Positions 4,011-8,744 of a DNA stretch of 38,718 nt are shown piece by piece. The translations under genes were made by a program, and so were the position numbers. The DNA lies in the NCBI GenBank assembly GCA_004298675.1, contig SCRI01000007.1, forward strand, positions 1-38,718, read 5' to 3'. The DNA comes from a bacterium. Lineage in GTDB: Bacteria; Vulcanimicrobiota; Vulcanimicrobiia; Vulcanimicrobiales; SCRA01. Every line of letters starts with the position of its first letter. Position 1 is the stretch's first letter. The notes beneath the pieces were generated by a model that did not search any database, was not told the origin of the DNA, and saw only the letters and a program-made list of their open reading frames with translations.

Positions 4011-4253
4011 CTAGTTCAGCGAGAGCGGAATGCGGCGGAGGCGGGTGGGCGAAGGGGTGCCGAGCAGGCGGCCGACATAGCTGCGCAACCGGCGCTCCTC
4101 GCAGCGTTGGACCTCGGCCACGGTCCACAGTAGACGCCGATGGTGGCCGCGTAGTCGCCGGGCCTCGACGTCGGAGGCCGTCAGTATCGCCACCTCGACG
4201 CGTGCCAGTTCGTCGTGGAGGGCGGCAAGCAGGTCGTCCGTGCGTTGCTCCAT
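4011..4253 (-). CDS. Hypothetical protein, 80 aa, helical and charged
   Basis: I do not recognise this 80-residue protein. It is rich in Arg, Glu and Leu and looks like two or three helices: about residues 1-30 (starting MEQRTDDLLAALHDELARVE) and an arginine-rich second half ending in RIPLSLN. It has no signal peptide, membrane segment or cysteine pair. The frame stays open far upstream, but that part is antisense to dprA. The start at 4253 is favoured because a promoter (TTGTCT, 18 bases, TATACT) lies 12 bases upstream and an AAGG ribosome-binding sequence sits six bases before the ATG. It is divergent from dprA. Charge and size would allow a nucleic-acid-associated protein, but nothing proves it. 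Confidence 0.6.
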   Translation of the reverse strand: MEQRTDDLLAALHDELARVEVAILTASDVEARRLRGHHRRLLWTVAEVQRCEERRLRSYVGRLLGTPSPTRLRRIPLSLN

Positions 4254-4264
4254 GATCGCCTTCG

Positions 4265-4294
4265 AGTATACCGCCCGTCCTTCGCCGCAGACAA
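4265..4294 (-). promoter_or_regulatory. Predicted promoter of the 80-aa hypothetical gene
   Basis: Read on the minus strand: -35 TTGTCT (4289-4294), an 18-base spacer, and -10 TATACT (4265-4270). The -10 box and 18-base spacer are the same as in the nrdR promoter. The ATG at 4253 lies 11 bases beyond the -10 box, so the leader would be very short. Confidence 0.5.
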
Positions 4295-4332
4295 GCCTTT
4301 CCCACGGCTGCAACCCCGGCAGAGAGCCTGGG

Positions 4333-5379
4333 ATGACGAGCGACCGATCTGCCGCCCTGCAAGCCCTGGCGGCCCTGGCGCGCCGGGGCGGCCCACGCGA
4401 GGCGCGCCGCGCCGCGGCCCATGGTGGCCCCCCAGTAGAGGCGCTGGCGCGCCTGGGGTTCGACCCCGCGCGCGAGCTGGAAGATCTGGGCATGGAGCTG
4501 GCGGATGCCGGGGTGGAGCTGCTGGATCCCGCCACCCTCCCAACTCTGGTGAGCCTCGCCGATCCGCCGGCGGTGCTCTTTGCGTGGGGCACGCCCCCGC
4601 CACAGCCGTGGAGCGGGGTGGCGATCGTCGGCACGCGTGCCGCCACCCCAGCGGGAAGCGCCCGCGCACACGCGATCGCGCGCGGGGTGGCTGCGGCCGG
4701 CGCCGTGGTGGTCTCCGGTCTGGCGCTGGGCATCGACGGCGCCGCCCATCGCGGCGCTCTGGCGGCAGGCGGGTGCACGATCGGAATCCTCGGCGGGGGC
4801 CACGGACGCTTCTTCCCGCTGGGAAACCGTACCCTGGCTTCCGAGATCGTCGCCGCCGGAGGCTGCATACTCTCGGAGTACCCGCCGCTGCAAGCGGCCT
4901 TCCCATTCCAGTTCCTCGAACGTAACCGCCTGGTGGCGGCCTTGGCGCGGGGTGTCGTCGTCGTGGAGTCGGGGCGGCGCGGCGGCGCCATCAATACCGC
5001 GGGCTGGGCCATGGAGATGGGGCGCGAGCTCTTCACGGTGCCTTGGGATGTCGAGCGCCCCAAAGGGGCAGGCTGTCTGCGCCTCTTACGCGAGGGCGCG
5101 CGCGCCGTGGGCGGCGCCGAGGACATCTGCGAAGACCTGGGGTTGACCGTACCGGTGCCGGTGCACCGGGCGCGGCGGCGGCTGGAGGCCATCGCCGGCG
5201 TCGCGGGCGGCCTCGCCACGCGCATCGTCGATGCCCTTGCCGGCGGAGAGCGTCTGATCGACGAGCTGGCCGAGCAGTGCGGGGCTCCGATCGGGCTGCT
5301 GCGCGGCGCGCTCTCGATCCTCGAGATCCACGGCGTGGTGGAGGATCGCGGTGGAGGGCGGGTCGCCCTGGTACAATAG
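4333..5379 (+). CDS. dprA: DNA-processing protein DprA
   Basis: A 348-residue DprA, which binds incoming single-stranded DNA during transformation and loads RecA. The Rossmann-like DNA_processg_A domain is clear: VAIVGTRAATPAG, then VVSGLALGIDGAAHRGAL, then GGGHGRFFPLGNRTLASEI, SEYPP, FLERNR and the VVESGRRGGAINTA segment. The last 60 residues look like the family's winged-helix domain (LIDELAEQCGAPIGLLRGAL). The start at 4333 excludes 31 residues from an upstream in-frame ATG that match nothing and overlap the divergent promoter. rlmH follows after 13 bases. Confidence 0.94.
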   Translation: MTSDRSAALQALAALARRGGPREARRAAAHGGPPVEALARLGFDPARELEDLGMELADAGVELLDPATLPTLVSLADPPAVLFAWGTPPPQPWSGVAIVGTRAATPAGSARAHAIARGVAAAGAVVVSGLALGIDGAAHRGALAAGGCTIGILGGGHGRFFPLGNRTLASEIVAAGGCILSEYPPLQAAFPFQFLERNRLVAALARGVVVVESGRRGGAINTAGWAMEMGRELFTVPWDVERPKGAGCLRLLREGARAVGGAEDICEDLGLTVPVPVHRARRRLEAIAGVAGGLATRIVDALAGGERLIDELAEQCGAPIGLLRGALSILEIHGVVEDRGGGRVALVQ

Positions 5380-5392
5380 CCAACGATCGCGC

Positions 5393-5854
5393 ATGCGTGT
5401 GCTCGTGCTTGCCGTCGGCCGGATCAAAGAGCGCTACCTTGCGGCCGCCGTGGCGGACTTCGCTCACCGGCTCCGCCCCTATCTGCCGCTGGAGCTGACG
5501 GAGGTCGCGGCTGCCCACGGCGGCGATCCGGCGGCGGCGATGCAGGAGGAGGCCGAGCGCGTACTCGCGCGCCTGAACTCCGGTGACGTCGTCTGGCTCT
5601 TGGAGCGCGAGGGTCAAGAGTGGTCGAGCATGGAGCTGGCGCAACGGCTGGCGGAGGTGATGCACGGCGGTGCCGGACGCCTGGTGCTGGTGGTGGCGGG
5701 AACGTTTGGAGCCGGCGCCGCGCTGCGCGCGCGGGCGACGCAACAGTGGAGCCTCTCGCGTCTCACGCTGCTGCACGAATGGGCGCGCGCGTTGGCACTC
5801 GAGCAGCTCTACCGCGCCATGAAGATCCTGCGCAACGAGCCCTACCATCACTGA
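5393..5854 (+). CDS. rlmH: 23S rRNA (pseudouridine1915-N3)-methyltransferase RlmH
   Basis: A 153-residue SPOUT-class methyltransferase that methylates pseudouridine 1915 in helix 69 of 23S rRNA on assembled ribosomes. It begins MRVLVLAVGRIKERYL, as RlmH proteins do, has the SAM-pocket glycine segment LVLVVAGTFGAG, and ends with the family signature RAMKILRNEPYHH. The start at 5393 is chosen because the first strand begins at once; an upstream in-frame ATG would add 14 residues overlapping dprA. It lies between dprA and argS on the same strand. A 95-base gap separates it from argS and holds nothing recognisable. Confidence 0.95.
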   Translation: MRVLVLAVGRIKERYLAAAVADFAHRLRPYLPLELTEVAAAHGGDPAAAMQEEAERVLARLNSGDVVWLLEREGQEWSSMELAQRLAEVMHGGAGRLVLVVAGTFGAGAALRARATQQWSLSRLTLLHEWARALALEQLYRAMKILRNEPYHH

Positions 5855-5949: not shown

Positions 5950-7644
5950 GTGCAGTCCATCCTTCAGAGACTCGAGCAGATCGTCGACGCGCGGCTGGAA
6001 GACGCCGTGCGCCGCGCCCGGCCCGGTCTCGACGGGGATCTGACGCTCCCGCCCGCCAGCTTCGCTCCCGCGCGCGACACGCGCTTCGGTGACTACTCCA
6101 CCCCCGTGGTCATGCAGGCGGCAAAAGTCGCCCGTACCAACCCGCGCGCCGTGGGCGAGGAGGTACGCGCCGCGCTCGAAGAAGCGGTAACGGCCGACCA
6201 CGAGCTAGCCGGCGCGGTCACCTCGATCACCCTGGCGGGGGCGGGCTTCCTCAACGTATCGATGGCCCAAGCGTACTGGCAATCGATCGTGGCGCAGGTG
6301 CTGCGCGAGGGCGCGGATTACGGACGCTGCCCGGCCGGCAATCGTACCATCAGCCTGGAGTTCGGCAGCGCCAATCCCACCGGGCCCGTGGTCGTGGTGC
6401 AGGGGCGCTCCACGGCGGCCGGCTCGACCCTGGCCAACATGCTGCGCTTCTGCGGTACTACCGTCACCGTCGAGTGGGTGCAGAACGATGCCGGAACGCA
6501 GACCGAGATGCTGGGGCGTTCGCTGTACGCGCGCTATCGCCAGCTCTGGGAGCCGGCGTATCCCTTGCCCGAGGACGGCTACCCCGGTGACTACCTGCTG
6601 CCGGTGGCGCAAGCCCTGCGCGAGCGCGACGGCGACCGCTGGCTGCGCGCCGCAGAGGCGGAGTGGCTCGAGCCGCTCGCGCTCTTCGCGCGCGACCAGA
6701 TCGTCGCCGAGCAGCAGCGCGACATGCACGACTTTCACGTCGATTTCGACGTCTGGCAGTCCGAGCGCGAGCTGCACCGGCAGGGACGTGTCGAGCAGGC
6801 GCTGGAGACGTTGAAGGCCGCCGGACACTGCTACGAACGCGACGGCGCGCTCTGGTTCCACGCAACCGCCTTCGGCGACGACAAGGATCGCGTGCTGGTG
6901 CGCAGCGACGGACGCCCCACGTATTACGCCGGTGACATCGCCTACCATTGGGAAAAACTGCGCCGCGGCAACGAGCGCTTGATCGACATTTGGGGTCCCG
7001 ATCACCACGGCTACATCCAGCGCATGAAAGCCGTCGTCGAGGCGTTGGGCCACAAGGGCGCCCTCGAGGTGCTGATCGCGCAGCAGGTCACGCTCAAGCG
7101 CGGTGAGGAGATCGTCTCCTCCTCCAAACGCCAAGGGCAAATCCTCACCCTGCGCGAGATCTTCGAAGAGGTAGGCGTTGACGCAGCGCGCTTCTTCTTT
7201 TTATCGCGCGCACTCGACTCACATCTCACCTTCGATCTCGACCTCGCCAAACAGCAGACTCAGGACAACCCGGTCTACTACGTGCAGTACGGTCACGCGC
7301 GCATCGCGAGCGTGCTGCGCAAAGCGCCGGCGCAGCTGCTCGCGCGCGCCGCGCAGGCGATGGATCTCACGCTCTTGACGCACCCGGCGGAGTTGGCACT
7401 GATCAAGCGCCTGGCGCAACTGGCCGATCGCACCGGCGCGGCGGCCCAGGCACGCGAGCCGCACCAGCTCACCGTGTACGCGCGCGAGCTAGCCACGGAG
7501 TTCCACCATTTCTATACCGAGTGCCAGATTCTCGGGGAGGATGCCGCGCTCTCGTCGGCGCGTTTGGCACTGTGTTTGGCGGCCAAGCGCGTCCTGGCGA
7601 CGGCGCTATCGTTGATGGGAATCTCCGCGCCCGACGTCATGTGA
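5950..7644 (+). CDS. argS: Arginyl-tRNA synthetase with altered HIGH motif
   Basis: A 564-residue class I synthetase that charges tRNA-Arg with arginine. An N-terminal Add-1 domain (about 1-110) is followed by the catalytic core and a C-terminal DALR anticodon-binding domain (from about 450). Core landmarks are LEFGSANPTGP (136-146), QNDAG, the YxxxD pair at Tyr325 and Asp329, IWGPDHHGYIQRMKA (347-361) and the KMSK-like SSSK (390-393) followed by RQGQILTLREI. The striking feature is the HIGH site: the usual P-L-H-V-G-H-G-R reads P-V-V-V-V-Q-G-R, so both histidines are lost (residues 148 and 151) with no length change. The start is a GTG with GGGAG just upstream. The next gene overlaps the stop by one base (TGATG). 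Confidence 0.95.
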   Translation: MQSILQRLEQIVDARLEDAVRRARPGLDGDLTLPPASFAPARDTRFGDYSTPVVMQAAKVARTNPRAVGEEVRAALEEAVTADHELAGAVTSITLAGAGFLNVSMAQAYWQSIVAQVLREGADYGRCPAGNRTISLEFGSANPTGPVVVVQGRSTAAGSTLANMLRFCGTTVTVEWVQNDAGTQTEMLGRSLYARYRQLWEPAYPLPEDGYPGDYLLPVAQALRERDGDRWLRAAEAEWLEPLALFARDQIVAEQQRDMHDFHVDFDVWQSERELHRQGRVEQALETLKAAGHCYERDGALWFHATAFGDDKDRVLVRSDGRPTYYAGDIAYHWEKLRRGNERLIDIWGPDHHGYIQRMKAVVEALGHKGALEVLIAQQVTLKRGEEIVSSSKRQGQILTLREIFEEVGVDAARFFFLSRALDSHLTFDLDLAKQQTQDNPVYYVQYGHARIASVLRKAPAQLLARAAQAMDLTLLTHPAELALIKRLAQLADRTGAAAQAREPHQLTVYARELATEFHHFYTECQILGEDAALSSARLALCLAAKRVLATALSLMGISAPDVM

Positions 7645-8744
7645 TGCGCTGGAGCCCAATCTTCAGCTTTCACCTCGCGCCGGATCTCGATGACGACTCC
7701 GTCACGCGCGCGGTAGAGGGCGCCTACCGTCCGTTCGCGCGCCTGCTGCTGCGCCGCCCGCTGCTGCGCGGCGGACTGGTGGTGGAGGCCGGCGTCAGCG
7801 AGCGCCTCTGGCGCGGCGGCCACGAGGACGTGATCATTGCGCTGCGCACGCTGGTGGAACGCGGCCAGCTCGAGCCCGTCGACACCGCGGCGTATGGCGC
7901 GCCGCTCCCACTGCTGCCGGAGGAGGAGATCCGCCGCCAACTCGCGCGCAACGCGTCCATCAACCGCACCTACTTCGGCCTCGCCTATCGCCCCACGGGC
8001 ATCGTGGCGCGCGCCTACGCCGCCTCGCCGCTGCTGGCACGCGCCGCGCACGCCGAGGGCTATCGGTATCTGCTCTGCGATACGCGCGCGCTCGGCGCGG
8101 AGCGGCCCAGCGGAGCGCGTCTGCGCGCCCCGGTGGGGTTGGCGCTGCTGGGGTGCGATCGCGTACTGGCCGAGGCGCTCTCCGAACGCACGGCGCCGCG
8201 CGTGCAAGCGCTGCATGCGGCCTTCGCGCAGGCGGGCGACTATGGAGCGTGCATTCTCCCCGTCCGGCGCCTGTGCGCGGATCCGGCGCGAGTGCGCCGC
8301 CTGCTGGCGGCCGTCGAACGCTTCGCGCTGCTCTGCCGCCGCCCCAGCGAACTGCTGACCGATGCCGAGGGTACCGGCCGGCCGGCGGAGATCCGCGAGC
8401 CGGACGGTGGACCGTGGCTGCTTTGGCACGATCCGGAGAACGCCGTGCATCGCATGCAATGGCGCTTCATCGCGCACGCACTGCTCCTGGCCGCGCGCGA
8501 TCCCAGCGGCCATCCGCACGCGCGCGAATGTCTCGACCGCGCGCTCTGCGCCGACTTCCTCGCGGCCGCGTCGCCGGCGCCGTTGTGGGATCCCGCGCGC
8601 ATCGAGCGCGGTGCGGCGCTGCTCTTGGAGAGCGCCCTCGCAGCGATGGCCGGCGAAGAGGAGCAGGCGGAGGCGCGCTACTACGCGCTGGAGATCGGCG
8701 AACGCGCTAGGAGTTGCGCTCCCGGACCAGCAGCGGCGCGATGA
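7644..8744 (+). CDS. GH57-like protein of unknown function
   Basis: A 366-residue protein with no signal peptide. Its first 170 residues resemble the start of glycoside hydrolase family 57 proteins: a short strand ending in an FHL turn, a helix giving VVEAGVSERLW, then a long helix, then AYGAPLPLLPEEEIRRQL (where GH57 has Y-x-H-P-x-L-P-L), then FGLAYRPTGIVARAYA (where GH57 has W-x-P-E-x-A), and a strand ending YRYLLCDTRAL. The histidine of the H-P motif is absent, and I cannot name the nucleophile, so activity is uncertain. The ATG overlaps the argS stop by one base, implying coupled translation. The last 38 bases overlap the convergent permease gene. The family call is tentative. Confidence 0.6.
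   Translation: MRWSPIFSFHLAPDLDDDSVTRAVEGAYRPFARLLLRRPLLRGGLVVEAGVSERLWRGGHEDVIIALRTLVERGQLEPVDTAAYGAPLPLLPEEEIRRQLARNASINRTYFGLAYRPTGIVARAYAASPLLARAAHAEGYRYLLCDTRALGAERPSGARLRAPVGLALLGCDRVLAEALSERTAPRVQALHAAFAQAGDYGACILPVRRLCADPARVRRLLAAVERFALLCRRPSELLTDAEGTGRPAEIREPDGGPWLLWHDPENAVHRMQWRFIAHALLLAARDPSGHPHARECLDRALCADFLAAASPAPLWDPARIERGAALLLESALAAMAGEEEQAEARYYALEIGERARSCAPGPAAAR

Follow-up and report, generated by a model that had tools for sequence, protein, structure and literature searches.

The question raised by this locus is whether a bacterium can rely on an arginyl-tRNA synthetase (ArgRS) from which the HIGH signature is missing. This signature is the taught hallmark of the class I synthetases and is used in arguments on their catalysis and origin; in canonical class I enzymes, its two histidines stabilise the triphosphate. 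The window, by which is meant the whole stretch of 38,718 nucleotides that was analysed, carries on its forward strand, as it does all the window features described here, an argS gene (5950..7644; GTG start, TGA stop at 7642-7644) encoding an ArgRS of 564 amino acids. Alignment of its translation places V-V-V-Q at residues 148-151 (6391..6402), where the canonical enzyme has H-x-G-H. A sequence-only reading of this DNA had offered two explanations, namely that the ATP site is compensated in this lineage, or that a second argS exists and the copy in the window has another role.

The product scores 377.1 bits against the whole-protein model TIGR00456, for which the equivalog cut-off is 261.65, and in a domain profile search PF03485, PF00750 and DALR_1 all lie above their cut-offs. 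The Arg_tRNA_synt_N domain occupies residues 8-104 (5971..6261; PF03485, 49.7 bits) and the DALR anticodon-binding domain residues 445-564 (7282..7641; PF05746, 112.6 bits). The match to the catalytic profile PF00750 (tRNA-synt_1d) spans profile positions 137-298 only, because the half containing the HIGH region diverges. Membership of class I rests on homology and fold, and the HIGH motif is not involved. Upstream of argS lie dprA (4240-5379) and rlmH (5351-5854), both on the same strand, while downstream an uncharacterised open reading frame with a weak GH57 match (7644-8744) begins with an ATG at 7644 that overlaps the argS stop codon.

Residues 140-154 read S-A-N-P-T-G-P-V-V-V-V-Q-G-R-S in translation, that is SANPTGPVVVVQGRS, and positions 1, 3 and 4 of the HIGH motif are all replaced. 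The earlier claim that both histidines have gone is thus borne out, by V148 and Q151 in the translated frame; the glycine at position 3 (residue 150) is lost too, and no part of the change is more invariant. The equal length reported around the motif is likewise confirmed by a gap-free alignment, in which the Campylobacter jejuni enzyme (3fnr) has SANPTGPLHIGHAR. At the KMSK position, residues 390-393 (7117..7128) do read S-S-S-K: the second lysine of the signature and the serine preceding it are kept, while the first lysine and the methionine are replaced. SSSK in place of MSK is the form of the window's genus, unlike other HIGH-less ArgRS, the form of the class being S-M-S-K. The asparagine and aspartate of the arginine site, said to be kept along with the DALR domain, are indeed present as N142 and D351, which are conserved in both HIGH-less and HIGH-bearing enzymes.

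The window is a contig of a draft genome, and an error of sequencing, assembly or frame might be suspected of having produced so odd a motif. Two genus-mates (G002 and G003; 86-87% identity), however, have the same motif residues encoded by synonymously changed codons (GTGGTCGTGGTGCAG versus GTGGTGGTGGTGCAG). Over the whole gene, the codon differences from these genus-mates comprise 180 synonymous and 73 nonsynonymous changes and, to judge from the codons, purifying selection is maintaining the HIGH-less motif. The discovery of HVGH in close relatives had been named as a possible refutation; alignment revealed none, and valine at 150 and glutamine at 151 occur without exception in the 57 sequences of the class that were read. 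The class relatives examined, which come from two orders, all have xxVQ, with LVVVQGR the commonest form. Residue 148 is more variable, being valine in 52 of the 57 and asparagine in 2, with serine, leucine and alanine also seen, and therefore probably has no catalytic role in this class. Moreover, the HIGH-less motif is found in more than 100 independent assemblies, with no gap and no change of frame. The likelihood that it is an error is negligible.

A second argS was sought in the window's own genome, which is 98.5% complete with 0.38% contamination. It contains one PF00750 match and one DALR_1 (PF05746) match, both within argS, and the idea of a second gene, with some other role for the copy in the window, is not borne out. 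The two original alternatives can thus be separated, since nothing points to a second argS. PF00750 matches were obtained in 90 of 101 relatives and almost always come from the HIGH-less gene, in many cases as a match split within a single frame; no canonical argS turned up among the 101 in this search. One relative (G118) has two HIGH-less copies, but its assembly shows 7% contamination. In other phyla, 49 of 50 genomes with a HIGH-less argS have no additional full ArgRS gene. A single Bacillota genome of these 50 (G167; loci L102 and L212) has two full ArgRS genes, one with NVVS and a separate one with HVGH (SINPNKAAHVGHLRN).

It might still be supposed that charging of tRNA-Arg is the task of a canonical argS located elsewhere, the window gene being a paralogue of ArgRS that has degenerated or taken on a new function. 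In three genomes of this phylum (G061, G062 and G065) a canonical argS is indeed accompanied by a paralogue whose HIGH motif is wrecked, but the single matches in the window's own genome, and the similar picture in its relatives, argue against this supposition. So does the TIGR00456 score, which for the window protein is far above the cut-off, whereas the true paralogues score below the cut-off and are not matched by PF00750, and so do the arginine-site and KMSK residues, which are invariant. The supposition is largely refuted, and we consider it very improbable. The second ArgRS-like proteins in question (L056:545-2443 in G061, L063 in G062 and L054:521-2191 in G065) retain the N-domain and DALR and carry NVDDGR or NFDDGR as their motif; they are possible non-catalytic paralogues. 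As argS is single-copy, it is predicted that the window ArgRS very likely arginylates tRNA-Arg.

The spread of the HIGH-less type was surveyed in one genome per species with a degenerate DNA pattern that excludes histidine at residue 148. At least 119 loci were found, essentially all of which translate as argS with [N/V][V/I]V[S/N/Q]; since the pattern selects for the trait, these counts show breadth and not frequency. A compensated site had been proposed for 'this lineage'; the loss of HIGH is not confined to it, however, and marks a bacterial ArgRS type distributed over more than 20 phyla. The contig labels include Bacillota, Spirochaetota, Leptospiraceae, Cloacimonadota, Poribacteria, Eisenbacteria, Krumholzibacteriota, Latescibacterota, Zixibacteria, KSB1, Calditrichota, Rokubacteria, Methylomirabilota, Myxococcota/Deltaproteobacteria, Actinomycetota, WOR-3, Stahlbacteria and Firestonebacteria, among others. 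A restriction of HIGH-less ArgRS to Eremiobacterota is ruled out by the same scan.

Within the window's own phylum, other families have NVVN (G070 and G066-G068) or HVGH and HAGH (G072 and G073), and still others have an ArgRS of the SPN.AKPMHVGH type. Both types also occur in Spirochaetota, where a Leptospira-like set has NIVS or NVVS and another set has HIGH. The enzymes of the Leptospiraceae, Cloacimonadota, Poribacteria, Bacillota lineages and others resemble that of the window in having Val150, in mostly having Pro350 and in being single copy. Most other HIGH-less ArgRS have Asn148 with Ser or Asn at 151, unlike the window's class, in which 148 is mostly Val and 151 always Gln. A plasmid collection was also searched for HIGH-less argS of named cultured organisms, and the matches inspected were all HIGH-bearing. 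The ArgRS of Leptospira interrogans in public databases reads NIVS, so that the variant has presumably been visible there even if undiscussed.

To compare the two types, 292 different ArgRS open reading frames were assembled and the SANP subfamily was split by residue 150, which is Gly in 59 sequences, Val in 207 and nothing else. In the window protein, the loop G349-P350-D351-H352-H353-G354 (6994..7011) has proline instead of the alanine of the canonical GADHHG. This residue shows the clearest difference outside the motif: of 206 Val150 sequences, 197 have proline at 350, whereas the 59 Gly150 sequences never do, having Ala (54), Ser (3), Arg (1) or Thr (1) there. When all columns were scored, those that best separate the groups were, in rank order, 148, 150, 154, 350, 377, 151 and 379. 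They fall in three elements established as walls of the ATP site in class I enzymes, namely the helix of HIGH, the ribose loop and the region preceding KMSK. Residue 154 (6409..6411), serine in the window, is Ala, Ser, Thr or His in HIGH-less enzymes and Trp, Gly or Asn in HIGH-bearing ones, while the pre-KMSK stretch reads A377-Q378-Q379 (7078..7086) as against Gly at 377 and Leu or Met at 379 in most HIGH-bearing enzymes.

Other positions are common to both types. E137, N142, R153, D351, H352 and Q378 are invariant or nearly so; R153 (6406..6408), for example, is present in 207 of 207 HIGH-less and 58 of 59 HIGH-bearing sequences. D351 and H352 occur in all 206 HIGH-less sequences compared, and K393 in all 201 that have a letter there. 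In the arginine-site segment E137-V147 (6358..6390), E137, N142, P143, T144 and G145 are invariant across HIGH-less ArgRS. E137, N142, D351 and Q378 presumably form the arginine site, with roles as in known ArgRS structures.

Eight of the nine Val150 sequences that lack Pro350 carry His154 (NVVSxRH or SVVLxRH). These sequences form an alternative constellation, in which a histidine has possibly been relocated. His154 enzymes, mostly without Pro350, were seen in Actinomycetota (L082 and L278-L283) and Bacillota (L140 and L151), SVVLxRH occurring once.

These data bear on whether the motif has simply drifted. In an enzyme that depends on tRNA for activation, the HIGH side chains might be of minor importance, and the motif could then decay neutrally with no compensating pocket. 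The looseness of motif position 4 would fit such drift: HMGN, HLGG, HIGG, HLGA and HVGS all occur in HIGH-bearing ArgRS, and it follows from those whose last histidine is replaced by Asn, Gly or Ala that this position is loose in ArgRS. The variability of residue 148 in the window's class would fit it also. On the other hand, the SANP subfamily allows only Gly or Val at residue 150, and residue 151 is an invariant Gln in the class, a pattern that is not one of decay; residues 350, 154, 377 and 379, moreover, differ along with 150. Neutral drift is, on balance, unlikely. HIGH-bearing enzymes with the last histidine replaced by Asn, Gly or Ala were seen in Oscillospiraceae and Monoglobus (L247, L250 and L256) and in Actinomycetota (L248, L252 and L309-L311).

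ArgRS trees were computed without the trait columns. The best tree has 5 changes between HIGH-less and HIGH-bearing states, of which supported branches force at least 2; a single HIGH-less clade is not rejected by the AU test (p 0.079), and the backbone of the tree is poorly resolved. With so few independent changes (2 supported pairs), a sign test on HIGH loss and Pro350 is without power, and the group differences at 350 and 154 likewise rest on few independent evolutionary changes. Shared ancestry could account for part of the pattern at 150, 350 and 154. The association between 150 and 350 thus appears as a strong pattern across phyla, not as proven co-evolution. One HIGH-less argS row (L086; Eisenbacteria, VBPB01000040.1) stood on a tree branch 4.28 changes per column in length and is probably a frame-broken sequence; it was excluded from the group comparison and from the second tree.

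An AlphaFold model of the window ArgRS, built from 57 aligned HIGH-less proteins, has a mean pLDDT of 95.4 and a pTM of 0.93, with a complete Rossmann core. Helix alpha-1 (149-167) is intact in the model and begins at 149, right after the motif loop. The best match in the PDB is the C. jejuni ArgRS 3fnr (TM 0.94 by target, 32% identity); the best 20 chains are all ArgRS, with CysRS and MetRS next. We found no solved structure that carries a HIGH-less motif.

The compensated ATP site that had been proposed as one alternative is supported by the single-copy gene, by purifying selection on the motif and by the ATP-site positions that differ together. With considerable confidence, the window gene can be regarded as probably encoding the sole, essential housekeeping ArgRS, of a widespread HIGH-less type with a remodelled ATP pocket that seems to have been rebuilt in concert. 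We infer that residues 148, 150, 151, 154, 350, 377 and 379 together form this pocket.

Work on other class I enzymes indicates how such a pocket might operate. The HIGH glycine is strongly conserved so that the adenine base fits (Brkic et al. 2023, PMC10485003), and mutation of the first histidine has been cited as costing approximately 1000-fold in several class I enzymes (in PMC10485003), which by analogy would count against an active HIGH-less ArgRS. However, a natural IleRS2 with G/AxHH is active because the tip of its motif-bearing helix is displaced from the adenine (PMC10485003). In a separate analysis, bound structures showed few HIGH contacts, and the part played by the motif was assigned to the ATP phosphate in the transition state (PMC5919687). 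For arginine activation, ArgRS depends on bound tRNA (PMC7373986). In the HIGH-less enzyme, the alpha-1 tip or the adenine position may be shifted, as with IleRS2, and Pro350 would shape the wall facing the shifted tip or adenine. Candidates for holding the phosphates are Arg153, Lys393 and the residues of DHH, perhaps joined by the polar residue at 151 (Q, S or N). As ArgRS requires tRNA for activation anyway, it is proposed that the triphosphate would be stabilised with tRNA-Arg bound. We give an even chance to the fuller proposal that this is an ancient bacterial ArgRS branch performing class I chemistry without HIGH, with the adenine repositioned via Val150 and Pro350 and the transition state stabilised by other residues.

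The closest known enzymes are HIGH-bearing ArgRS of the SANPTGP type (for example C. jejuni 3fnr and Priestia megaterium WP_014457737). They share with the window ArgRS the same fold, length, N-domain and DALR, as well as the arginine-site residues, DHH and the KMSK lysine, but have H-x-G-H and GADHHG where the window has V-V-V-Q and GPDHHG, with 154, 377 and 379 also changed. IleRS2 is a natural class I enzyme that departs from HIGH at positions 1 and 3, carries a bulky residue in place of the glycine and is nevertheless active (PMC10485003). VVVQ does not fit G/AxHH, and shares with IleRS2 only the principle of a bulky position 3; in IleRS2 two residues are swapped and a histidine remains by the site, whereas the window ArgRS has no histidine left. 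The IleRS2 variant is tied to mupirocin resistance, but no such link is known for HIGH-less ArgRS. ArgRS of the APN/SPN type, which form the outgroup, have likewise lost a class I signature, in the opposite manner: they keep HIGH, have a lysine just upstream (SPNIAKPMHVGH) and have lost KMSK, whereas the window ArgRS has lost HIGH, lacks the upstream lysine and keeps the KMSK lysine.

Class I reviews present HIGH as conserved (PMC7373986, PMC6366043), and one survey reports it in every class I protein covered (PMC6366043); the first altered HIGH, that of IleRS2, was treated as highly unexpected in 2023 (PMC10485003). No description of HIGH-less ArgRS was found in the open-access literature searched, and no assay or solved structure of an ArgRS of this type. 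The group is apparently undescribed. If the fuller proposal above is true, one of the twenty housekeeping enzymes could, across more than 20 phyla, do without a signature that is called universal for class I; lineages would have arrived at different solutions, with Pro350 in some and His154 in others. Since many phyla have a sole ArgRS that lacks HIGH, nature itself offers a comparison by which the roles of the first histidine and the glycine can be tested, and paired swaps offer another. For annotators and modellers there is a caution, in that loss of HIGH is not equal to loss of function. The altered ATP pocket, that of the Leptospiraceae included, could matter for selective inhibitors.
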